From: a virus
Virus record (IMG/VR): IMGVR_UViG_3300025141_011978
Span: 1 to 51,221 of that record
DNA length: 51,221 bases
Strand: one strand, 5' to 3'
In this document: positions 5,730 to 48,085 of the stretch, piece after piece
Position numbering within the stretch: position 1 is the stretch's first letter
Layout: each line of letters begins with the position of its first letter
The notes under the pieces: generated by a model
Database searches by the model: none
Told to the model about the DNA's origin: nothing
What the model saw: the letters and a program-made list of their open reading frames with translations, nothing else
Program-made: the position numbers and the translations under genes

Positions 5730-6830
5730 TTATATTACCTTAAACTCTTCATCATTATCATAAATTATCTCTTGTCCATCATTATATTTTAATTTGAATA
5801 ACACTTTATAATATCTCCCAGGTTCAAATGTATTTAACCACTGATCAAAATACATTGAAGTTGAATCACAACTCATTGATGTATGTGCACTAAATGGAAC
5901 TTTTGGTGTATCTGTTACAATATCTATAATTGAATAAGAACCACTTCCTTCTGGTATATAAAAAGAAGATGTAAGCATTGATTCTGTAAATGTTTTTTGT
6001 ACATATTTTTTTCTACAACCTATTCTAAATCTAACCTTTTCTGTTTCTCTATATTTTGGTTGTAATCCTTTTATAAATATATGATTTTCTAATTCTCCAC
6101 TCATTGTTAAAGCAGTTAAACTACCAGTATTTGAACCCGTTACAGGTTTGTGGTCATCCCACCTAACTTCTAATTTTGGTGCATATATTGTATGTGTGTT
6201 TCTTGAAAAGAATTTTAAATTATATGGGTTACTATCTGTTTCAGCACTACCACTGAACTTTAACAAAAATCCATAATTAGATATTACACCACTTCCACCC
6301 AAATGATTATTCACAATATCGGTCACATCCATTTCAACATCAGGTGATTGATTTATAAATGATTGAGATGCTTGATATCCACTACCAGTCATCCATACAC
6401 CACCACCAGTGCCTAAACTACCAGAATCTGAATTTGAGTCAGCTAATGACCAAGCAGATCCAGAATCATAATCTATCCAAGTAACTCCTTTTTTTGTTTT
6501 TGGATTATGATTTAATTTTCCAACTCCTTCTTCCCAAGATTGAGATATAGGATATGCAGATATTGAGTAAGATTTATCTAATTCTTTTTGTCCTTTTACT
6601 TCATATAATCTTAAATAAAATTTTGGACTTGTTATATCTCCGTTTACAATAGAACTTGATATATCTGAATAATTAAATTGCATAAGTATTCTTGACGCGG
6701 CTTCTGCAGAAGTTGAAAAACTTCCACTAAATATTTTACGAAGTTCAAGTATTTCATCCGAACCAAAGTTTTTCTTTTGAAATTCAGTTGTTATATAGGC
6801 ATCTTTGCTTGGAAATATAAAATAATGCAT
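5730..6830 (-). CDS. tail fibre/appendage protein, short paralogue
   Basis: 366 residues. The N-terminus MHYFIFPSKDAYITT and the flow NFGSDEILELRKIF, SRILMQFNYSDIS and PKFYLRLYEVK match the next gene upstream (6831-8777) segment by segment, as do the C-terminal parts (KYRETEKVRFRIGCRKKYV; YNDGQEIIYDNDEEF). The two are tandem paralogues; this one lacks the LamG insertion. N-terminal beta-sandwich domains of this sort occur in virion proteins of marine T4-like phages. Its ATG abuts the upstream TAG. Likely a short fibre or baseplate decoration. Confidence 0.75.
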   Translation of the reverse strand: MHYFIFPSKDAYITTEFQKKNFGSDEILELRKIFSGSFSTSAEAASRILMQFNYSDISSSIVNGDITSPKFYLRLYEVKGQKELDKSYSISAYPISQSWEEGVGKLNHNPKTKKGVTWIDYDSGSAWSLADSNSDSGSLGTGGGVWMTGSGYQASQSFINQSPDVEMDVTDIVNNHLGGSGVISNYGFLLKFSGSAETDSNPYNLKFFSRNTHTIYAPKLEVRWDDHKPVTGSNTGSLTALTMSGELENHIFIKGLQPKYRETEKVRFRIGCRKKYVQKTFTESMLTSSFYIPEGSGSYSIIDIVTDTPKVPFSAHTSMSCDSTSMYFDQWLNTFEPGRYYKVLFKLKYNDGQEIIYDNDEEFKVI

Positions 6831-13631: not shown

Positions 13632-14078
13632 TTATTCTCCTCCAACAGTCATTGTGACCGATTCAGTAGATGTTGGATCTTGTTTTAAACTAAAATCTAC
13701 TGATATTTCCATTGTACTTCTACCAACATCACTATTATTATCTGACATTTTAACTCTTATATCATTAAGTTGAACAAATGGCAACCAAAAATTCATACTT
13801 TCAACTATAGTATCTTGAACTTGAACAACTAAATCTTCTGAAAATGGTTCAAATAAATATTTTTTAATACTAACTCCTAAATTTGGCTGCATTACTCTCT
13901 CACCAATTTCTGTGCTACAAAGATTTAATACATTTTGTTTTACAGCTTCAAGAGTTGTTTTGGTTGATGCATCATACCCATTATCAAATGTCATAGGTAA
14001 TTTAAGTCCAAGAGCCACCGATTCATCTTGATCAAACACATTGGGAGTTTTTAGTCTACTTTTATCTACTATCGCCAT
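13632..14078 (-). CDS. gp25: baseplate wedge protein, gp25/GPW family
   Basis: 148 residues, close to the family's usual length. The core GLKLPMTFDNGY, TEIGERVMQPNLGVSIKKYL and FEPFSEDLVVQVQDTIVESM matches GPW/gp25, the sheath-initiator wedge protein with a lysozyme-like fold but no catalytic role. The ERxMxPxxG motif is clear. It starts 3 nt after the upstream gene and precedes the gp6-like gene, as in other contractile-tail phages. Confidence 0.93.
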   Translation of the reverse strand: MAIVDKSRLKTPNVFDQDESVALGLKLPMTFDNGYDASTKTTLEAVKQNVLNLCSTEIGERVMQPNLGVSIKKYLFEPFSEDLVVQVQDTIVESMNFWLPFVQLNDIRVKMSDNNSDVGRSTMEISVDFSLKQDPTSTESVTMTVGGE

Positions 14079-23801: not shown

Positions 23802-23874
23802 AAGCGGGTATGGGAGTCGAACCCAATATCTTCAGCTTATGAGGCTGACGTTTAAACCGTTTCACTCACCCGCA
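23802..23874 (-). tRNA. tRNA-Met-like gene (CAT anticodon), atypical
   Basis: Minus strand: acceptor arms GCGGGT and ACCCGC, anticodon arm TCAGC-CTCATAA-GCTGA, T-loop TTCGACT with TGGG/CCCA, and no encoded CCA. The D stem pairs poorly and positions 1-72 and 49-65 are mismatched. The anticodon stem lacks the three G-C pairs of initiator tRNA, so it would be elongator Met or Ile2 (CAU). It is either real but divergent, or decaying. Confidence 0.65.
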
Positions 23875-23876
23875 AT

Positions 23877-23921
23877 TTTTCCGTACTATATGGAAATTTC
23901 CGTATTTTCCGTACTATGTGG
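23877..23921 (-). repeat. direct repeat between tRNA and tmRNA
   Basis: TTTCCGTACTATATGG and TTTCCGTACTATGTGG (plus-strand reading, one mismatch) lie at about 23877-23892 and 23906-23921. The second copy covers the tmRNA 3' end. A partial third copy, TTTCCGTATT, lies between them. Confidence 0.6.
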
Positions 23922-24235
23922 AGATGGGGGGAGTCGAACCCCCGTCTTGACAGCAATGCCATAAAGTCATTCACAAGTTTAGTTGGTTTCTATTCCTACC
24001 AACAAAGTCAACTTTTCTTAATTCATTCTTTTAGCATCGCGATTAAGTGTTGTTATCCCTACGATCGGTCTTCCGATTTCGTCACCACTTTATCCCCTAT
24101 CAGAAGTCAGGGAGTGATGGTAGCCACGTCTATGCGTATGCTACGTTGTAGTTTGTATAATTGCCGATTAAACAATTGTACTAGTTTACTTGCACTCTAT
24201 GTCAAAAATCTACCAATCGAAACCATGGCATCCCC
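23917..24235 (-). ncRNA. ssrA: transfer-messenger RNA (tmRNA)
   Basis: Both ends are diagnostic: 5' GGGGATGCCATGGTTTCGA and 3' GGGGGTTCGACTCCC then CATCTCC, pairing as a 7-bp acceptor with one G-T pair. A tag reading frame at 24130-24165 gives GNYTNYNVAYA then TAG, with TAATC just before the Gly resume codon. One-piece form, about 317 nt; no encoded CCA. tmRNA with SmpB rescues stalled ribosomes and tags nascent peptides. No smpB is seen in the window, so it would use the host protein. Confidence 0.92.
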
Positions 24236-32353: not shown

Positions 32354-32920
32354 CTATTTTCCGAAGCAAACATACATTAAGTCTGACAATCTGTCAATAG
32401 TAATATATTTTTTCTGACTTTTTGTATTCCAAGTCTGACGATAACAGATAGGAACACCATTGTTAATAGATTGTTTTTTAAATCTACTGAGCTTCCTTGG
32501 GGAATCATCTACCAACACATCTACATCAACTGACCATTTCTTATGAGTGTAATGTATTTCATCAAAAACAAATCCCCATCTCTGTAACCATTGGGTTGTG
32601 AGGTCTCTACAATTTTCTCTTTGAGCGGAAACTAAAATAAGTTCGTGTCCGTGATTCTTTGCCCACTCTTTTAGAACTGGCCAATCTGTTAATGAGGTTT
32701 CAATAACATTAGCTTCAGGACCAAATAGTTCCTCAAAGTATTCATCAAAAACATATTTTTCAGTTTCCCCATCAGTCCAAAATGGAAGCCACTCTTCCCA
32801 GTCCCAACTAGTAGGGATACCAATCTTATCAGCGTGTTCTGGGTAAACTTCTTTTATTTTATTTATAAGGTCAGGAATAAAATCTCTTAATACTCCATCG
32901 CAATCTATTCCTATTCTCAT
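32354..32920 (-). CDS. HAD-superfamily nucleotidase (5'(3')-deoxyribonucleotidase-like)
   Basis: 188 residues, ATG preceded by AAAGG. HAD motif I is RIGIDCDGVLRDF (D6, D8), motif II ELILVSAQ, and motif III plus the acidic pair is KKWSVDVDVLVDDSPRKL. The cap and length fit the NT5C/deoxyribonucleotidase type that dephosphorylates nucleoside monophosphates, but phosphatase substrate cannot be read from sequence. It lies immediately downstream of the structured RNA at 32945. Confidence 0.85.
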   Translation of the reverse strand: MRIGIDCDGVLRDFIPDLINKIKEVYPEHADKIGIPTSWDWEEWLPFWTDGETEKYVFDEYFEELFGPEANVIETSLTDWPVLKEWAKNHGHELILVSAQRENCRDLTTQWLQRWGFVFDEIHYTHKKWSVDVDVLVDDSPRKLSRFKKQSINNGVPICYRQTWNTKSQKKYITIDRLSDLMYVCFGK

Positions 32921-32944
32921 TTGTAACCTTTATTTAATTGTGAG

Positions 32945-33026
32945 GAGAGTGCCCGGAGGGACTGGTGGTTGAGCAGTTAATCTAGTCCGAAGACTCCAGA
33001 CAACCCCAAGTATGCGGGCGACTCTC
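32945..33026 (-). ncRNA. unassigned structured RNA between the vWA and HAD genes
   Basis: Minus strand: GAGAGT-C-GCCC at the 5' end pairs with GGGC-ACTCTC at the 3' end (10 bp with one bulge). Inside lie a cUUCGg tetraloop hairpin (AGTC-TTCG-GACT, 32984-32995) and complementary blocks GGTTG/CAACC and CTGG/CCAG that cross, hinting at a pseudoknot or a switch. It is more GC-rich than its surroundings. It is not a tRNA: no T-loop or anticodon arm fits. It could be a riboswitch or leader of the HAD gene. Confidence 0.6.
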
Positions 33027-33030
33027 TATT

Positions 33031-35208
33031 TTATTTTTCCAAGAATTTTTTGTTCATTGTTTTTGCAACTTCCATCATATTGGTAGCGTTGATGAAAGAA
33101 GCATCATTACCATACATATTTTTGAAAGCTCTATTTTCATCATCATAATCATGTTTACCACTAATAAAGTAACTCAATACATTAATACCTTTAGCTCTCA
33201 TATTGTTAACCATCTTCGCCGTATGTCTTTCAGCACTTTCACCAGAATAATTAATTTCAGAGTTACCATAGTAAGGTTGACCATCGGAGTAATTTACAAA
33301 GTAACTATCCTGATTATTATTACCAGGAATTAATTCTTTTTCAATAGCTTCGAAACACAAACCTTCTGGTGTAGTTCCATCAACATCAAGTGCGGTAAAA
33401 AGAGTTTTAACTTTAGTTAACTTATCAGTTCTTGAATCATACACAACCATAATCATTGGAACATCATTATAATGACGACCGTGTGTAGCTCTGATTGAAA
33501 CAACCACATCAATGTTACCAGCCATATCACAAGCTTTAATCATTGCAACTGCTGATGTCATAGCTTTGTTCCATTTGTCACCAGACATTGAACCAGAAGC
33601 ATCAACTGAAATATGAAGATAAGCTTTGTTAAATCTTTCAACAAAGGTTTGACTAAACACATTAGAATTTCCAAAACCTAATTCAGACAACAATCTCTTA
33701 TCAATCTTACCAGAATCTTTCCGAGAATATTTAAGAGAAGATTCTTCACCTCTAACTTGAAGTTTTCTTCCTAACATAGTTCCTAATCTTAAACCTTCTT
33801 CAACAAAGTTGTAAGAACTTCCGTAACGATTTGTATCATTATAATTTTTTTGTCTCCAAGAAGTAGCACAACCAAAGATATTAGAATCAATTAAACCTTG
33901 AGTAAGTTTCCGAACAACCAAACACTTTGTTCCTTTACCAAAAGAATTATAATCCCAACGATTAGTTTGGATACCATCACCAACATTCTCATAAGAAGCA
34001 CCACTCTCTTCAATCGCTTTAACAGAGTTATTATCTTTTTTAGAAAGTTTGGTTTTATTAATATTACCATCAACAAAATCTTTTTGTTTTTCAAAAGCTT
34101 TTCTTAATTGTTCTTTTTGTCTATCTGAAAGTTCAACAGGAGTAGAACCATCATCATTAGAAGAACCATTACCACCCATCCCAACAGGAGCCTCAACAGA
34201 TTTTCCACCACCTGAACCAGAACCATCACTACTATCTTCACCATTTTCAACTGAATCAAGAAGTGAATCAAATTCTTCATCACTCAAAGTGTTATCATCA
34301 GAACCACCATTACCACCACCATCAGAATTACCATCATCACCTTCACCATCAAGACCACTCATACCATCAGTATTAGTATCTGAATTTCCTTCAACTTTAA
34401 CTTTATCAATTGAATTAAGAACAACTCTACTAACTTCAAGTGCCACATTAAGAGCCATTCTCGTATCTTCTAACCGAGATATATTCCACAATTCAACTAA
34501 ATTATAAATTTCTTTAAGACCTTTAAGAGAACCTAACTGTCTATTTTTATTATGAAGGTTAATTATTCTAAACATATAAGAATCAATATCTTCAATTCTC
34601 ATTTCAGAACTCAATAAACCTTTATCTACATTCTTTGAATAAAAATACTTATTATACATTGAATGATAATAACCTTTATAACCAGGAGAAGATTTAAATG
34701 TATCAGTATCAATTCTCCTATCTTCAACATAATTCAGAACTGATTTAACCATCTGAATAACATTATTTCTAGAAACATTTTTGTTATCACCTATAACATA
34801 AAGTTCTTCAGGTATTTCCATTTCTAATTGTTTAAGAAGATTAAAATCAGAAAGTGATATATGAGAACCTTCGTGAAGAGCCAAACCAACAGCTACATCA
34901 AAATTCTTCTCATTAAGGTTAGAACCTATAACAACTTTCTTACCATCAGTAAAAGATTCATCATTATTATTAAATGTAACTGGTATATTCTTACCAGTAA
35001 CAATATTAACAAAGTTACCTATGGCTCTTTTATAACCTGATAAAGCAACTATATCTTTACCCTTTGGTTTATCTTCATCAATACCTAAAAATGAATCAAC
35101 ATCATTATCAGAAGAAGTATCCCAAAAGGAAGAAAATGATTTAGTCTTATTTTTAGAAGGGCCAGAACGGAAAGTAAAACCCTTATAATCATTTGAATTA
35201 AAACTCAT
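33031..35208 (-). CDS. CobT-like protein: HExxH metallopeptidase-like region plus von Willebrand A domain
   Basis: 725 residues from the ATG at 35208, chosen because AAAGGAAAA precedes it. Residues 110-118 contain HEGSH in ALHEGSHISL, a zinc-protease-like motif. A long acidic Gly/Ser/Asp linker (about 278-365) leads to a C-terminal vWA domain with the MIDAS motif DASGS at 536-540. This layout resembles CobT and related vWA partners of MoxR/CobS AAA+ ATPases. A CobS-like ATPase is encoded at 46347-47552 behind a related promoter. Target of the pair unknown. Confidence 0.85.
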   Translation of the reverse strand: MSFNSNDYKGFTFRSGPSKNKTKSFSSFWDTSSDNDVDSFLGIDEDKPKGKDIVALSGYKRAIGNFVNIVTGKNIPVTFNNNDESFTDGKKVVIGSNLNEKNFDVAVGLALHEGSHISLSDFNLLKQLEMEIPEELYVIGDNKNVSRNNVIQMVKSVLNYVEDRRIDTDTFKSSPGYKGYYHSMYNKYFYSKNVDKGLLSSEMRIEDIDSYMFRIINLHNKNRQLGSLKGLKEIYNLVELWNISRLEDTRMALNVALEVSRVVLNSIDKVKVEGNSDTNTDGMSGLDGEGDDGNSDGGGNGGSDDNTLSDEEFDSLLDSVENGEDSSDGSGSGGGKSVEAPVGMGGNGSSNDDGSTPVELSDRQKEQLRKAFEKQKDFVDGNINKTKLSKKDNNSVKAIEESGASYENVGDGIQTNRWDYNSFGKGTKCLVVRKLTQGLIDSNIFGCATSWRQKNYNDTNRYGSSYNFVEEGLRLGTMLGRKLQVRGEESSLKYSRKDSGKIDKRLLSELGFGNSNVFSQTFVERFNKAYLHISVDASGSMSGDKWNKAMTSAVAMIKACDMAGNIDVVVSIRATHGRHYNDVPMIMVVYDSRTDKLTKVKTLFTALDVDGTTPEGLCFEAIEKELIPGNNNQDSYFVNYSDGQPYYGNSEINYSGESAERHTAKMVNNMRAKGINVLSYFISGKHDYDDENRAFKNMYGNDASFINATNMMEVAKTMNKKFLEK

Positions 35209-35251
35209 AAATTTTCCTTTTCTATTATTTATCTCTTTTATCATCTATGTA

Positions 35252-35335
35252 AATATACGGCGAATATCTAATTAAAGTCAAGCACTTTCGTAAATTAAAT
35301 TGTAACAGTATGTAACAATTAAAGTATTACTTTAA
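35252..35335 (-). promoter_or_regulatory. regulated promoter module of the vWA gene (copy A)
   Basis: Coding strand, 5' to 3': palindrome TTAAAGTAATACTTTAA (35319-35335), direct repeat TGTTACA x2 with 10-bp period (35301-35317), -35 TTGACT (35276-35281), 18 bp ending in CGCCG, -10 TATATT (35252-35257). The same layout recurs at 48000-48085. The leader to the ATG is about 40 nt. Confidence 0.7.
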
Positions 35336-35515: not shown

Positions 35516-38500
35516 TTACATTTTTGGGATTATTCCACCTTCTTGCATGGTCGAGTTACAACTTTGTGTCATTATACCCCATAAACAATAAGCTGAAAGA
35601 AGATGTTCATCCCATTGAATGATTGTTGTGATACCTTCAATGGTTTCAGTTTGATCTACCTGAAAACAAGTTTGTATACCATCACAATCAGTTTCCGTGT
35701 CACAAGGGCCCGCTTCACATGCCTCAGCATAGTGGTTTGCACAACATGCATCACACTCATTTTCTTCACCACCACATGTTCCACATATATCATATTTTCC
35801 TTCTTGTGGTACATCCTGGATGGTAGGTACCATATAACATTCCTCATCACAACCTACAAATCCATATTCGAAACATTCTGCGGGCTCAGTTGGACAATTT
35901 GATACATCACAAACCACGGAGTCATCCCAACATATATATTCAGCACCTGGTCCACCACATACACCACAGTCATCTAATACTGCACAACCAAAACAATCAT
36001 CATTACAATCTCTGAGAGTTGAGGATGTGTCAAACTCCCATAGGCCACATAGACGACAATCGTCTATATTATTATTTCCTCCACATTCTCCTAAACAATC
36101 TTCAACCCAACAGTCACCATCGGCATAAGTTTCCCCTGAAGTTACAAGGTAGTTACAAGCTATTGATTCTGTACAACAAGTTGAATTATCACCATCACAT
36201 ACTCCACATTCATCTTTTATCACACAAAGTAATGCATTACATAAATTTTGATTTTGTGGTGAACAATCACCATCACCAGATCCAGAAATGTCCGGACAGA
36301 CTATATAAGGTTCACAATTATTAGTACCACACGCACTAAGACCACATTCCGTACAAGTATGATAAGTACCATCACCAGCACATGTAGCTAATTCATTATA
36401 ATTGTCACTACCGATGTCACACGCATCATTACCAGCTGGAAGACATTCATCATCACAATCACATATTCCATCATTATCAGTATCAATACATTTTCCTTCG
36501 GGTTGACATTGGGGGATATTACAAGCATCCATCTGGTAAGTGCATTGAAATTCTAGATCACCTTCAATATTGGCACAATACTCTTCACCTAAAATTGTAC
36601 AATAATCACCAGTTTCTGTACCAATTGCACAAGTTACTGGTCCTTCTTCATCACAACCACAACCTTGATCAGTTGCTGTAGAACCGCAAACATTATCACA
36701 ACCAGATGGTCCAGCCTCACCACAACCACATCCAAGTTCTTCATCCTCGTCACAACAACCATTAACTAACCCAGTATCAATACAAGCGCAATCACACCAT
36801 TCTACTCCAGCTTCATCTGTACTACAAGTCTCTGCGTCAATATTACCAAAACAATCACCACAATCATCCATATCTGAATTAGGTATATGTTCAGTATTAC
36901 CTTCAGAACAAACATCACAGTCATCTAATACAGCTTCACCATTACAAACACCATTACAATCTACTTCAAGTGATTGACTTCTACATTCATAACTTGCATT
37001 GTCCATTGTACAACAATCACCATTACAATCTACTATATTGGTATCCTCTAAATATCCATCTACATATTCACAATCTGCACATTCACCGTAATTACACGCA
37101 GCTATAACATCACATATTGTAGCTGATCCACCACATTCCCCTAAACAATCTAATACACCACATCCAAGTCCATCACAACCGGTTGGAGTTCCACAATCAA
37201 AGTCATCTAGTTCTCCACAAGTAGCTGGTGGATATTCACAATCATATCCACAACCACCATTATCGCAATTAGTATCTGGGGAAGTTCCTCCACCACCGCA
37301 ATTATTTTTATAATTTATAGTCTCACCACCACAGACACCATCACAATCCCAAGAATGTGCAGCACATTCACAAAATCCAGAAACATTACAATCAGGTAAA
37401 TGGTCGTCTGTACCATCTGATGCTGGATATAACTCACTACAATTACCAGTACCACAATAATCTATAGTCTCATCACACTGATCAGTTGCTCCACCACATT
37501 CTGGATCACCAACAGCTGCACAATCCCAAAGGGCTACAGCTTCATTGTCACCACAAACTCCACATTCATCTTCTACTGATAAACCACCACATATTCCTGC
37601 ACAGTCTACACCATCATCACTACTACAATAACAAGAATTATCGATTGGATTACAATTAGGAGTTGGTTCAGAACAATTAGGATTATTATCACCACTACAA
37701 TTTACATCTTCCATACATTCACCACCGGCGTCAACGCCTGAAGCAGTACATCCTTCTCCTAGGCAACCACCTGCATCGCTATTATCGAGGAAATGACAAG
37801 TAAATACTGGTTCCTCACCACCCACACATGTATAATATCCGTCAAAGTAATAAACATCATCTTCACAATAAGAATCACAATCTGGTTGATTACAACCACA
37901 ATTTTGATTATTTGGATCTGCAACACAATCACCACAGTCATCAACACTTCCATAACCATCGAGACATGAATAGAAGGTATTATAGGTTTCACCTGATGGT
38001 AAAGTACTACAACATGATGCTTCACCAGGACCGCCACAATGTCCAGCTTCTGACCAAGTGAAGTTTGATATGTCATTACCACCACATACACCACATTGAT
38101 CTATCACATCATCACCACCACAAATACCAGCACAGTCAGGTTCCTCATATGAGCAGCATTCAGCGTTCAACGAACAATATGTACAATCACTTATATAACT
38201 TTCACCACAACCACAACCATCTGGATCTGTATCATTACAACACCCACTAAAATCCCCACCTGAATCTGGTAATGGGCAATCACCAGTTGAGCAATATCCT
38301 CCATTACAAGTACATTCAGCAGATGAGCTTGCATATCCATAAGTTCCACAACAATCAGAATTACTACCTTCACATGAACCACAAAAATTGGTGGATGTAC
38401 ATCCAGAGACACTTGATGTATCACAAGTATCAGCAGTTCCACACATTCCATGATTAGAACAAGGATTATAATTTTCTATTGAATCACAACCAGCTTCACC

Positions 38501-39565
38501 AAAACAACCATAAGCAGTTCCACACATTCCATGATTAGAACAAGAATTATAATTTTCTATTGAATCACAACCACCATCACCATCAGCACCACTAAAACAG
38601 TCAGTACTCGTTCCACCACAATTTTCACAAGAAACTGATGGAGCTGAACAATCACTAGAACCACAAACTGTACCACCACAATAATTAGTTTCTTCGTCTG
38701 AACAAGCATAATCTGGAGCTGAACAATCACTAGAACCACAAACTGTACCACCACAATAATTAGTTTCTTCTTCGTCTGAACAAACATAATCTGGAGCTGA
38801 ACAACCACCACCCTCACAATCAGTTGGTTCACCACATTCACCACAATCAGCTGGTGTATCACATTCAGTATCGAAAGCTACACAACCACCACCACAACCA
38901 GCATCACAAGTGAGGATAAAAGCATTACCACCACATTCTCCGGCACAATCTGTATTATTAGTTTCACAGTCACATTCACCGAAGAAATCCCCATCGACAT
39001 CATAATCGTTATCAACCCAATTATCTTCAACAATGTCTGGACAAAATACCTGAGAATCCGTTGGACATCCGAACCCATCGCCATCGTTATCAGAGTAATA
39101 GGTAGTCAAATAAAGACAACATTCATTTCCACCAGGACCATCACCATCTTCATTACAGTCTGTATTACAACCATCTGTACAAGTATTACACGCACTATCA
39201 TCAGTACAACCATATACTGGGATGACATAATTAAAACTTACTTGTATAACTTCTGATAAGCCCCATGGCAAAGCCGCGAATTGTGGAGATACCCAATCAC
39301 CAGTACTCGTTACTACACCAGTTATTGTTTCACCTGGAAATTCAGCTGGTGTTAATTCGATTAAAAAATCATATCCAACTGGATCAGAATCTACCTCTAA
39401 TAGTATATTAATTAATGTAGCAGTCCCGTCGCCATTATCCGTATAACTTATACCACCATTTTCAGGATAATTAATTGTTGCTCCTTGATAAGTAAGGGAA
39501 ATTGAATCTTCAGGAGTAACCGAATGGTTAAATGAATATGTTAAACTTAAATTTAAAAGTGCCAT
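35516..39565 (-). CDS. giant Cys-rich repeat protein (surface/adhesin-like)
   Basis: 1349 residues from the ATG at 39565, which overlaps the previous stop (TAATG). After an N-terminal beta domain of about 120 residues (SLTYSFNHSVTPEDSISLTY), the rest is dominated by Cys/Gly/Asp repeats such as DCAGICGGDDVIDQCGVCGG and DECGVCDGDNSTCC, plus calcium-binding-type DNDGDGFGCP and DTDNDGICDCDDE. Such repeats are typical of large secreted proteins of Marinimicrobia and related FCB bacteria. No signal peptide. Probably a virion appendage folding outside the cell. Confidence 0.85.
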   Translation of the reverse strand: MALLNLSLTYSFNHSVTPEDSISLTYQGATINYPENGGISYTDNGDGTATLINILLEVDSDPVGYDFLIELTPAEFPGETITGVVTSTGDWVSPQFAALPWGLSEVIQVSFNYVIPVYGCTDDSACNTCTDGCNTDCNEDGDGPGGNECCLYLTTYYSDNDGDGFGCPTDSQVFCPDIVEDNWVDNDYDVDGDFFGECDCETNNTDCAGECGGNAFILTCDAGCGGGCVAFDTECDTPADCGECGEPTDCEGGGCSAPDYVCSDEEETNYCGGTVCGSSDCSAPDYACSDEETNYCGGTVCGSSDCSAPSVSCENCGGTSTDCFSGADGDGGCDSIENYNSCSNHGMCGTAYGCFGEAGCDSIENYNPCSNHGMCGTADTCDTSSVSGCTSTNFCGSCEGSNSDCCGTYGYASSSAECTCNGGYCSTGDCPLPDSGGDFSGCCNDTDPDGCGCGESYISDCTYCSLNAECCSYEEPDCAGICGGDDVIDQCGVCGGNDISNFTWSEAGHCGGPGEASCCSTLPSGETYNTFYSCLDGYGSVDDCGDCVADPNNQNCGCNQPDCDSYCEDDVYYFDGYYTCVGGEEPVFTCHFLDNSDAGGCLGEGCTASGVDAGGECMEDVNCSGDNNPNCSEPTPNCNPIDNSCYCSSDDGVDCAGICGGLSVEDECGVCGDNEAVALWDCAAVGDPECGGATDQCDETIDYCGTGNCSELYPASDGTDDHLPDCNVSGFCECAAHSWDCDGVCGGETINYKNNCGGGGTSPDTNCDNGGCGYDCEYPPATCGELDDFDCGTPTGCDGLGCGVLDCLGECGGSATICDVIAACNYGECADCEYVDGYLEDTNIVDCNGDCCTMDNASYECRSQSLEVDCNGVCNGEAVLDDCDVCSEGNTEHIPNSDMDDCGDCFGNIDAETCSTDEAGVEWCDCACIDTGLVNGCCDEDEELGCGCGEAGPSGCDNVCGSTATDQGCGCDEEGPVTCAIGTETGDYCTILGEEYCANIEGDLEFQCTYQMDACNIPQCQPEGKCIDTDNDGICDCDDECLPAGNDACDIGSDNYNELATCAGDGTYHTCTECGLSACGTNNCEPYIVCPDISGSGDGDCSPQNQNLCNALLCVIKDECGVCDGDNSTCCTESIACNYLVTSGETYADGDCWVEDCLGECGGNNNIDDCRLCGLWEFDTSSTLRDCNDDCFGCAVLDDCGVCGGPGAEYICWDDSVVCDVSNCPTEPAECFEYGFVGCDEECYMVPTIQDVPQEGKYDICGTCGGEENECDACCANHYAEACEAGPCDTETDCDGIQTCFQVDQTETIEGITTIIQWDEHLLSAYCLWGIMTQSCNSTMQEGGIIPKM

Positions 39566-40269
39566 TATGTTCCCCCATTCCAAGTTAATGTCTTATCACT
39601 ACCCATACTAGAAATACCTACTATCATACCTTTAACTATAGATGTTATATCACCCGATGCATTAAACCAGCTTCCACCCACCCTCATAGCATAACCAACC
39701 ATTTGTGAGGACAGCATTGTAATAATATGAGACCCATCATCAATTTCCCCACCAATTGATTGATCTAATATATCAGTAAAGCTTGTACCATCATGAAATT
39801 CATCAGCATATGGATAAGAAACAAATCCCCAAGCAGCTGCTTGTGTCTGTACAGTACCATCCCAACCACCAACAACAGTAAACGAAGGATAAGTTACAGA
39901 AGGACATGTACTTGGATCCATACATACATCACTACCAGAACAAATTCCATCACATTCAGTACAATTATTATCACAACAACTTCCCTCACTATCACAACAA
40001 ACACCACAATCAGCAGGACATGTAATTGGATCTATATAATTCTCTGGTAAACATGTCTCACCACCTGGACAAATCCCATCACATTGAGTACAATCACTAT
40101 CACAACAACCGTCAGCAATATCACAACATACACCGGTATAATCACGACCACCGGATGTACGTGTATCGTAATTTGGTCTTTCCTTTTGTGGAAGAATATC
40201 ATTCATTAAACTCTGCAATTCTTCAACAGACATATTCTGTAATTCTTTATCTGAATGCTTTTTAGCCAT
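39565..40269 (-). CDS. Cys-rich protein with short helical N-terminus
   Basis: 234 residues, ATG preceded by GGAG. The N-terminus MAKKHSDKELQNMSVEELQS is a helical motif shared with the next gene upstream. A Cys-rich block follows with two near-copies: CCDSDCTQCDGICPGGETC and CCDNNCTECDGICSGSDVC. The C-terminal half is a beta domain (SFTVVGGWDGTVQTQAAAWG). It overlaps both neighbours. Probably part of the same surface structure as the giant protein. Confidence 0.78.
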   Translation of the reverse strand: MAKKHSDKELQNMSVEELQSLMNDILPQKERPNYDTRTSGGRDYTGVCCDIADGCCDSDCTQCDGICPGGETCLPENYIDPITCPADCGVCCDSEGSCCDNNCTECDGICSGSDVCMDPSTCPSVTYPSFTVVGGWDGTVQTQAAAWGFVSYPYADEFHDGTSFTDILDQSIGGEIDDGSHIITMLSSQMVGYAMRVGGSWFNASGDITSIVKGMIVGISSMGSDKTLTWNGGT

Positions 40270-41098
40270 TATTCTCCAATCTTTTTATTTCATCTATAAG
40301 TTGTTGTTTGGAAAGTTTTGTTGGAACAGGTGTTGTTCTTCCACCCTTTTTAGATGAAGTATAATCACAACCATAACCAAAACCATCAACACAAGTTCCA
40401 CAAACATTATAATATAAACAACTTCCATCATCTTCCGTTGCGATATCATCATAGTTACATGCGGTTTCATCCATACATCCAGAAACATATTCAGTTGGAC
40501 AGACAAGGGGTGTTGAATCACCATGAATATGATTAATAATAACTAATAAATCAAGAACATTTAATGCACCATCACCGTTTACATCACCACATGGATGATA
40601 TCCCGAACCATCACCCAATATTATATTAATTAATATAACTATATCAAGAACATCTATGGCACCATCACCATTTGGATCACCACATTGACCTTCCGGACAA
40701 TGGTCTGTATTACCTGGCTCATTATTATGGGTGTACCCACCTTCATGAAATTTTCTTTTAATATTAATACAGGGTTCATTATTACTTAAATAACCATTTA
40801 GTCTATCTAACATTTGTTCCAAAGACAATCCACTTAAACTCTGTAACATCTGTCTTTCTTCTGAGCAATTTCCTTGTGGTATTGGTTTGGGTTTTATTTC
40901 AGGGGGTCTTGGTTTTGATATTAAATCTTTTTTTAGATTTTGTAGTTGTTCAATAGACATAGAATGGAGTTGACTGTCGAGAAGTTTTGGTTGTGATGGA
41001 ACAGGTGTTGTTCCTTTACTCTGTTCTAACTCATCTTTTATTCTTTGTAGTTCTTTAACAGATTTATTTCGTAACTCATTATCTAAATATTTAGCCAT
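40262..41098 (-). CDS. dockerin-bearing protein with helical N-terminal repeats
   Basis: 278 residues. Two copies of a short helix (LRNKSVKELQRIKDEL; LHSMSIEQLQNLKKDL) open the protein. A type I dockerin-like pair follows at about residues 137-196: GDPNGDGAIDVLDIVILINI and GDVNGDGALNVLDLLVIINH, each a calcium-loop/helix. A Cys motif (CNYDDIATEDDGSC) and a C-terminal helix (SKQQLIDEIKRLENNG) complete it. Dockerins bind cohesins; no cohesin is evident in the window. Confidence 0.82.
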   Translation of the reverse strand: MAKYLDNELRNKSVKELQRIKDELEQSKGTTPVPSQPKLLDSQLHSMSIEQLQNLKKDLISKPRPPEIKPKPIPQGNCSEERQMLQSLSGLSLEQMLDRLNGYLSNNEPCINIKRKFHEGGYTHNNEPGNTDHCPEGQCGDPNGDGAIDVLDIVILINIILGDGSGYHPCGDVNGDGALNVLDLLVIINHIHGDSTPLVCPTEYVSGCMDETACNYDDIATEDDGSCLYYNVCGTCVDGFGYGCDYTSSKKGGRTTPVPTKLSKQQLIDEIKRLENNG

Positions 41099-47687: not shown

Positions 47688-47897
47688 AAAAAGAAACCGC
47701 TGTTTTAGTTTGTGATTAATGTGGTAAACTAACTCGCTATCAAGTAAAACACACAATCTTCTACAGGGGATCTCATCATCTTTGTCTGACCACTTTGGTG
47801 TCATTCCGTCTGCCTTCCGCTTCTTAGGATTTACCACAGGCTTCCCTTGTATTGATATCATTTCAAAAAACTTTATTTCTTGTGGAGTTTCATACAC
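47667..47897 (-). CDS. small basic hypothetical protein
   Basis: 76 residues, ATG after GGAGGG. Basic, with two Cys (CRRLCVLLD); ends KQRFLFGGFRTV within its terminator. It follows promoter module B at 48000 after a leader of about 100 nt and precedes the CobS-like gene. Unrecognised. Confidence 0.62.
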   Translation of the reverse strand: MYETPQEIKFFEMISIQGKPVVNPKKRKADGMTPKWSDKDDEIPCRRLCVLLDSELVYHINHKLKQRFLFGGFRTV

Positions 47898-47999
47898 CCT
47901 CCGGAACTTTTTACGCTAGTCTGTCAATTCAGAACTCCCAACGTGCCCTTCGTAGGGGAAAAATCAATCCATTATTTTATCTCTCTCATCATCTACTTA

Positions 48000-48085
48000 A
48001 ATATACGGCGATTTTACGATATAAGTCAAGCGTTTTATTCAATTAAATTGTAACAAGATGTAACAGTCGTTAAAGTATTACTTTA
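48000..48085 (-). promoter_or_regulatory. regulated promoter module (copy B)
   Basis: Coding strand: palindrome (48070-48085), TGTTACA x2 with 10-bp period (48049-48065), TTTAATT, -35 TTGACT (48024-48029), 18 bp ending CGCCG, -10 TATATT (48000-48005). Same order and nearly the same spacing as at 35252-35335. Downstream similarity continues for about 30 nt (TAGATGATnAnAGAG). Confidence 0.7.

Follow-up and report, generated by a model that had tools for sequence, protein, structure and literature searches.

The 82-nt element at positions 32945-33026 of the window (the whole 51,221-nt stretch of viral DNA that was analysed) is a genuine, uncatalogued small structured RNA common to at least 13 related marine bacterial viruses. 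These viruses probably make it as an independent small RNA, and not as a switch for the nucleotidase gene that adjoins it in the window. With it, marine phages gain a well-supported uncatalogued RNA family whose invariant core is small enough for bench tests. The window is a 51-kb viral record with T4-like features, namely a baseplate wedge protein and, in related contigs, gp23-type capsid genes.

Fold and composition of the element

As all neighbouring genes point in the minus direction, we took the minus strand as the sense strand of the RNA, which then reads GAGAGUCGCCCGCAUACUUGGGGUUGUCUGGAGUCUUCGGACUAGAUUAACUGCUCAACCACCAGUCCCUCCGGGCACUCUC. The GC content of the element is 57% compared with 33% for the whole window, a level that only 0.014% of 82-nt stretches reach. 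Its fold is better than that of shuffled sequences, with z-scores of -2.6 on the plus strand (3/200 shuffles were as good) and -2.7 on the minus strand (0/200). No tRNA was found at the element by ARAGORN or Rfam, and no Rfam 15 family matches it on either strand (cmscan of 32880-33080, E≤10); the sole match in this interval is a chance match to JPX_2 outside the element. The known self-cleaving ribozyme classes of Rfam likewise gave no match. The layouts of integron attC sites and of twister, hammerhead and HDV ribozymes were compared by eye and were rejected, the defining letters or topology being missing.

The RNA is closed by a helix, P1, of 11 bp with one bulged base on the 5′ strand (GAGAGU-c-GCCCG, 33015..33026, pairing with CGGGC-ACUCUC, 32945..32955; all features of the RNA are on the minus strand). 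An internal loop and a short helix follow (CAU ACU U, 33008..33014, opposite C AGU CCCUC, 32956..32964), and then the apical helix P2, in which GGUUG (33001..33005) pairs with CAACC (32967..32971). A single-stranded 3′ tail, CUCACAAUUAAAUAAAGGUUACA (32922..32944), leads away from the closing helix and, in the window virus, also includes the ribosome-binding region of the nucleotidase gene.

A preliminary description, made from the letters of the window, had proposed a compact structured RNA with a 10-bp closing stem, a GC content well above the surroundings and no fit to tRNA. These points are borne out, the stem being one pair longer and bulged. Its cUUCGg hairpin fared less well: the sequence is present on the minus strand, but the hairpin is absent from the single-sequence minimum-energy fold and a fold that includes it is 0.6 kcal/mol worse, so that it is at best a trait of the window copy. 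Two crossing complementary blocks, GGTTG/CAACC and CTGG/CCAG, had been taken as a pseudoknot. Both complementarities exist, but the first is nested, forming part of the apical helix that covaries, and its pairing is conserved, and the second is complete only in the window copy (in 0/12 other members), the AG of CCAG being engaged in the conserved ACU/AGU helix. The pseudoknot is thus unsupported. Another candidate pseudoknot, between an apical UAAC and a GGUUA of the tail, was dropped by inspection, as L020 has no GGUUA and L142 no UAAC.

Homologues and conserved structure

The preliminary description had suggested an Rfam scan and a covariance search, naming a lack of covarying homologues and of a stable fold as what would count against a structured RNA. 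The scan is given above, as is the comparison with shuffles. For the search, relatives were gathered through the flanking genes of the element. Searched with a covariance model built from the window copy alone, a related contig yielded a diverged copy (E 2e-7) with compensatory changes in both helices, and a two-sequence model found five further distinct sequences among ∼80 relatives. Two pattern scans and a ten-row model raised the total to 13 distinct sequences, the window copy and 12 homologues from related marine phage contigs. The window virus and IMGVR_UViG_3300025131_008477, identical across the 10.2 kb compared, were counted once, and so were L121, L122 and L133, which have the same RNA.

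The foot of the closing helix, GAGA/UCUC, is the same in all 13 copies (on the 3′ strand CUCUC is invariant), while the five inner pairs covary freely and the position of the bulge shifts between 5 and 7. Beyond P1 lie the internal loop CAU/CCCUC, the short helix ACU/AGU (one U-G), a mismatch and an apical part that varies. CAUACU is invariant on the 5′ side (13/13) and C.GUCCCUC on the 3′ side (13/13, with the A in 12/13), and the P2 region covaries in the members in which it can be aligned. Directly 3′ of the closing helix, CUCA is unpaired and invariant (13/13), and most members continue into a tail resembling CUCACAAUUAAAUAGGUUAYA (CUCAC..AAAUA.GGUUA). Part of this invariance is selected, since five of the 13 members came from pattern scans that require the motif letters. 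The eight members found by models alone still agree on GAGA, CAUACU, GUCCCUC and on CUCA, which is covered by no model.

In a 9-row model-fitted alignment 97.5% of the paired cells are standard pairs vs. 28–48% in controls in which the pairing partners were slid by 1–3 columns, and two-sided changes are seen at 10/19 pairs. The 13-row model-fitted alignment gave 97.4% vs. 26–49%, with two-sided changes at 6/15 pairs. A sequence-only MAFFT alignment analysed with RNAalifold also recovers the closing helix and the short inner helix, with 8/16 pairs compensated, and each of the 13 copies folds better than its shuffles (z -2.4 to -6.1). What the preliminary description had named as counting against a structured RNA therefore does not hold. 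Judged from these sequences, the element is an RNA family of T4-like marine phages that no described Rfam family matches; structured phage RNAs without known function are already recognised as a kind.

So far all known members of the family come from viral contigs related to the window. Scanning IMG/VR for the exact pseudoknot-arm pattern returned the same virus and two chance matches in unrelated sequence, and the additional matches from core-pattern scans of viral and genome collections do not fold. Blastn against a phage collection gave nothing relevant to the element. No convincing copy was seen in five cyanophages (two with manA), Mel-JY01, immuto, RM378 and one huge phage, nor in 45 bacterial genomes of one order; the latter search shows little, as it had no positive control.

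Genomic context and transcription

In 11 of the 13 members the RNA lies 147–622 nt upstream of a gene for a MoxR/CobS-like AAA ATPase, on the same strand and within a noncoding-RNA locus. In the window it is instead found between a VWA-type (CobT-like) gene (33031..35244, minus strand), the stop codon of which lies 4 nt before the RNA, and an NT5C (HAD) 5′-nucleotidase gene (32354..32920, minus strand; Pfam PF06941, E 2e-10). The VWA-type ORF has homologues in many viral contigs; its product has no Pfam match at E≤0.001 (TROVE or other), and the VWA/CobT naming is therefore by inspection. At 35516-39583 (minus strand) the window encodes a protein of 1355 aa in which cysteine-rich repeats are numerous, and the gene at 40262-41098 has a dockerin match.

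The VWA-nucleotidase position, with the RNA 3–4 nt past the VWA stop, is seen only in the window and the L121 sister lineage, and the two cases probably represent one evolutionary event. Other relatives have the VWA gene with no RNA at that place. With 11/13 copies at the MoxR locus and other VWA-nucleotidase relatives devoid of the RNA, it is not a nucleotidase leader by descent. The preliminary description had suggested either a nucleotide-sensing riboswitch or leader controlling the HAD nucleotidase, or a processed sRNA. The riboswitch would fit the two lineages in which the RNA is directly upstream of NT5C and in which, in the window, the tail includes the ribosome-binding region of that gene, but this holds for 2/13 copies, the most conserved part of the RNA is outside the ribosome-binding region, and one copy (in L172, see below) has its own promoter, judging by sequence. 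We regard the riboswitch as mostly refuted by context and as scarcely credible; the processed sRNA was the better half of the suggestion.

A phage-type promoter, TTGACT-N18-TATATT, is located before the VWA gene of the window (35252..35281, minus strand; it agrees at 12/12 positions with the promoter class seen at the RNA loci of the relatives) and is the likely source of a transcript running through VWA, RNA and nucleotidase. This promoter region occurs twice in the window (35228-35317 and 47976-48065; 90 nt at 80% identity). It includes TGTTACA repeats as well as TTGACT-N18-TATATT, and both this promoter class and the TGTTACA repeats recur in related phages. At ∼47690-48000 (minus strand) a stretch of some 300 nt, bounded by a promoter and a terminator, holds no clear ORF and no good Rfam match, and is probably a further noncoding RNA.

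In L172 a 12/12 phage promoter ends 7 nt before the RNA, transcription is predicted to begin with the RNA's own first base, and a GC-rich hairpin with a U-rich stretch lies downstream. Starting 7 nt after a perfect phage promoter, the RNA looks stand-alone in this virus. In the 12 other members it comes after other RNAs or coding sequence on the same strand. GC-rich hairpins with loops like UUACUCCUUUCU are usually present 3′ of the RNA, ending in a U-run in many loci, and in most MoxR loci a promoter-like site of the TTGACT-N18-TATATT class follows the hairpins and precedes the ATPase gene. The window itself has hairpins at 48337-48303, 48298-48267 and 46337-46304 (minus strand) that flank its MoxR gene; their loops, ..UUCCUUUCU or ..ACUCCUUUU, are complementary to Shine-Dalgarno sequences, and similar loops occur 3′ of the RNA in most relatives.

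We also considered that the RNA might regulate the MoxR-VWA pair, or serve the MoxR/CobS-like ATPase gene as a leader or attenuator. Every copy has one of the two genes beside it: 11/13 precede MoxR and share its strand, and 2/13 come directly after its presumed partner VWA. In most, hairpins or a terminator separate the RNA from MoxR. This reading is nevertheless very doubtful in view of MoxR's own promoter-like site in most loci, of distances ranging from 147 to 622 nt, and of the two VWA cases being probably a single event. A link of the RNA to the MoxR/VWA pair is one that we infer from these positions.

What precedes the RNA differs from virus to virus. A manA-like RNA is directly upstream in four contigs (L020, L123, L142, L167). 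The manA-like RNAs at L020 1271-1484, L123 687-896 and L137 1501-1710 score 35–50 bits, below the Rfam cut-off, and that of L167, upstream of position 415, was recognised by sequence; each is directly upstream of the structured RNA, which links manA RNA to a constant downstream partner. A tRNA-like cloverleaf, a further RNA with no assignment, occupies the upstream position in L120 (just before 1501), L169 (just before 1641) and L131 (just after 8231, minus strand). It has a 7-bp acceptor and arms of 5, 7 and 6 bp, shows compensatory changes, and ends 2–5 nt before the structured RNA; in L120 and L169 a 3-nt loop replaces the anticodon loop. L129 has tRNA-like pieces (∼6000-6092) in which the D arm resembles a second T arm, giving two GGUUCGA-type hairpins, and for which ARAGORN makes no call. 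In the window, Rfam finds a phage-borne tmRNA at 23916-24235 and a tRNA match at 23802-23874 that ARAGORN does not call (both minus strand). The noncoding-RNA locus of these phages thus places differing structured RNAs, manA-like or tRNA-like, before one constant RNA.

A proposed recognition core, and known counterparts of the RNA

An invariant loop and foot around a varying apex suggest that the element is recognised by some protein or other RNA and is not a generic hairpin. On our reading, the RNA closes a noncoding-RNA transcription unit in most relatives and is followed by hairpins, with a terminator among them in many copies; the ATPase gene comes next, usually under its own promoter. In L172 the RNA appears to be transcribed alone from the phage promoter, and in the window lineage the unit sits between the VWA and nucleotidase genes. 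Once released or transcribed as a small RNA, it could present a recognition core of three parts: the CAU/CCCUC loop, the bulged helix P1 (GAGA/CUCUC at its unvarying foot) and the tail that exposes CUCA(C). The apical part would be free to vary. A phage or host protein might recognise this core to give a small RNA-protein particle; alternatively, the CU-rich foot and tail may be offered for pairing with other RNAs. That the RNA has a protein-binding core and acts in trans is the reading that we prefer, a proposal drawn from sequence whose chances we put at about even. A bolder reading seems unlikely to us: a new phage RNA class of marine T4-like phages with a dedicated protein partner or catalysis of its own (an RNA-protein particle or a new self-cleaving ribozyme), kept beside a chaperone-like MoxR/VWA pair.

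With same-strand RNA or coding sequence upstream in 12/13 members, an element acting in cis at transcript 3′ ends is equally possible from the arrangement. In this chief rival the RNA would be an exonuclease barrier, a self-cleaving ribozyme or a processing site of the RNase III type. It would fix the 3′ terminus of whichever mRNA or noncoding RNA precedes it and would, in the window, split the VWA and nucleotidase messages. This rival would account for the RNA being 3–6 nt after a stop codon in four members (the window, L121, L119 and L124, the last two with a small ORF ending 5–6 nt before the RNA), and for its place after other structured RNAs in most of the remaining ones, with hairpins or a terminator 3′ of it. 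Phage RNase III sites, among them the T7 R sites, are intercistronic hairpins with an internal loop between helices and so resemble the closing helix and loop described here, but they need no invariant internal loop and foot, which in this RNA persist in diverged copies. Moreover, no Rfam ribozyme matches, and in L172, where the promoter is predicted to start transcription at the RNA's first base, no upstream transcript would be left for processing. All in all we rate a cis-acting role as possible but tentative.

The Ro-binding Y RNA and YrlA offer a likeness: a conserved bulged helix made from both ends and a variable loop, and a VWA-type gene that adjoins the RNA in the window. They differ in that this RNA has no Rfam match and the VWA-type protein no match to TROVE or any other Pfam family.

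Yfr1 is a cyanobacterial small RNA in which an ultraconserved undecanucleotide, ACUCCUCACAC, is unpaired, with a hairpin on its 5′ side and a terminator hairpin on its 3′ side (PMC2190773). The RNA described here also has a 5′ hairpin, a conserved CUCCUCAC segment and a terminator hairpin, and the window segment CUCUCCUCACA has CUCCUCACA in common with the undecanucleotide. A Yfr1-type antisense RNA would pair its CU-rich CUCUCCUCAC, which the closing helix hides in part, as a seed with GUGAGGAG targets resembling Shine-Dalgarno sequences, and the invariance of CUCA in 13/13 copies in spite of its being unpaired would agree with this. However, in place of the full undecanucleotide the window carries CUCUCCUCACAAU, a 9-nt common string that is partly paired, and Yfr1 has no internal-loop core. 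There is no match to the Rfam model of Yfr1, and in a target search of the window one plausible Shine-Dalgarno target only, GGAGGAGAA at 13642, stands out. The seed is further weakened by half of the segment being paired in P1 and by uncertain hosts, which probably differ: the closest capsid proteins (about 52% identity) are from an uncultured huge phage, Flavobacterium phage immuto and Microcystis phage Mel-JY01, pointing to Flavobacterium and other hosts and not clearly to cyanobacteria, and psbA was looked for and not found. As the resemblance was also spotted after the fact, we consider such a mode of action improbable.

HDV-like theta ribozymes are small structured RNAs found near tRNA-like genes in gut phages (PMC10879173). 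This RNA is likewise small, structured and near tRNA-like genes in phages; in contrast, it forms one nested rod with no supported pseudoknot and matches no Rfam ribozyme.

The manA RNA (RF01745) is separate in structure and sequence. The RNA described here sits 3′ of the manA-like element, and a search of five cyanophages, two of them manA carriers, did not find it. Both are structured RNAs of unknown function from marine phages, and in four contigs a manA-like RNA precedes this one. As a constant partner, the RNA offers a way of approaching manA RNA, long without an explanation, and the roles of such phage RNAs.
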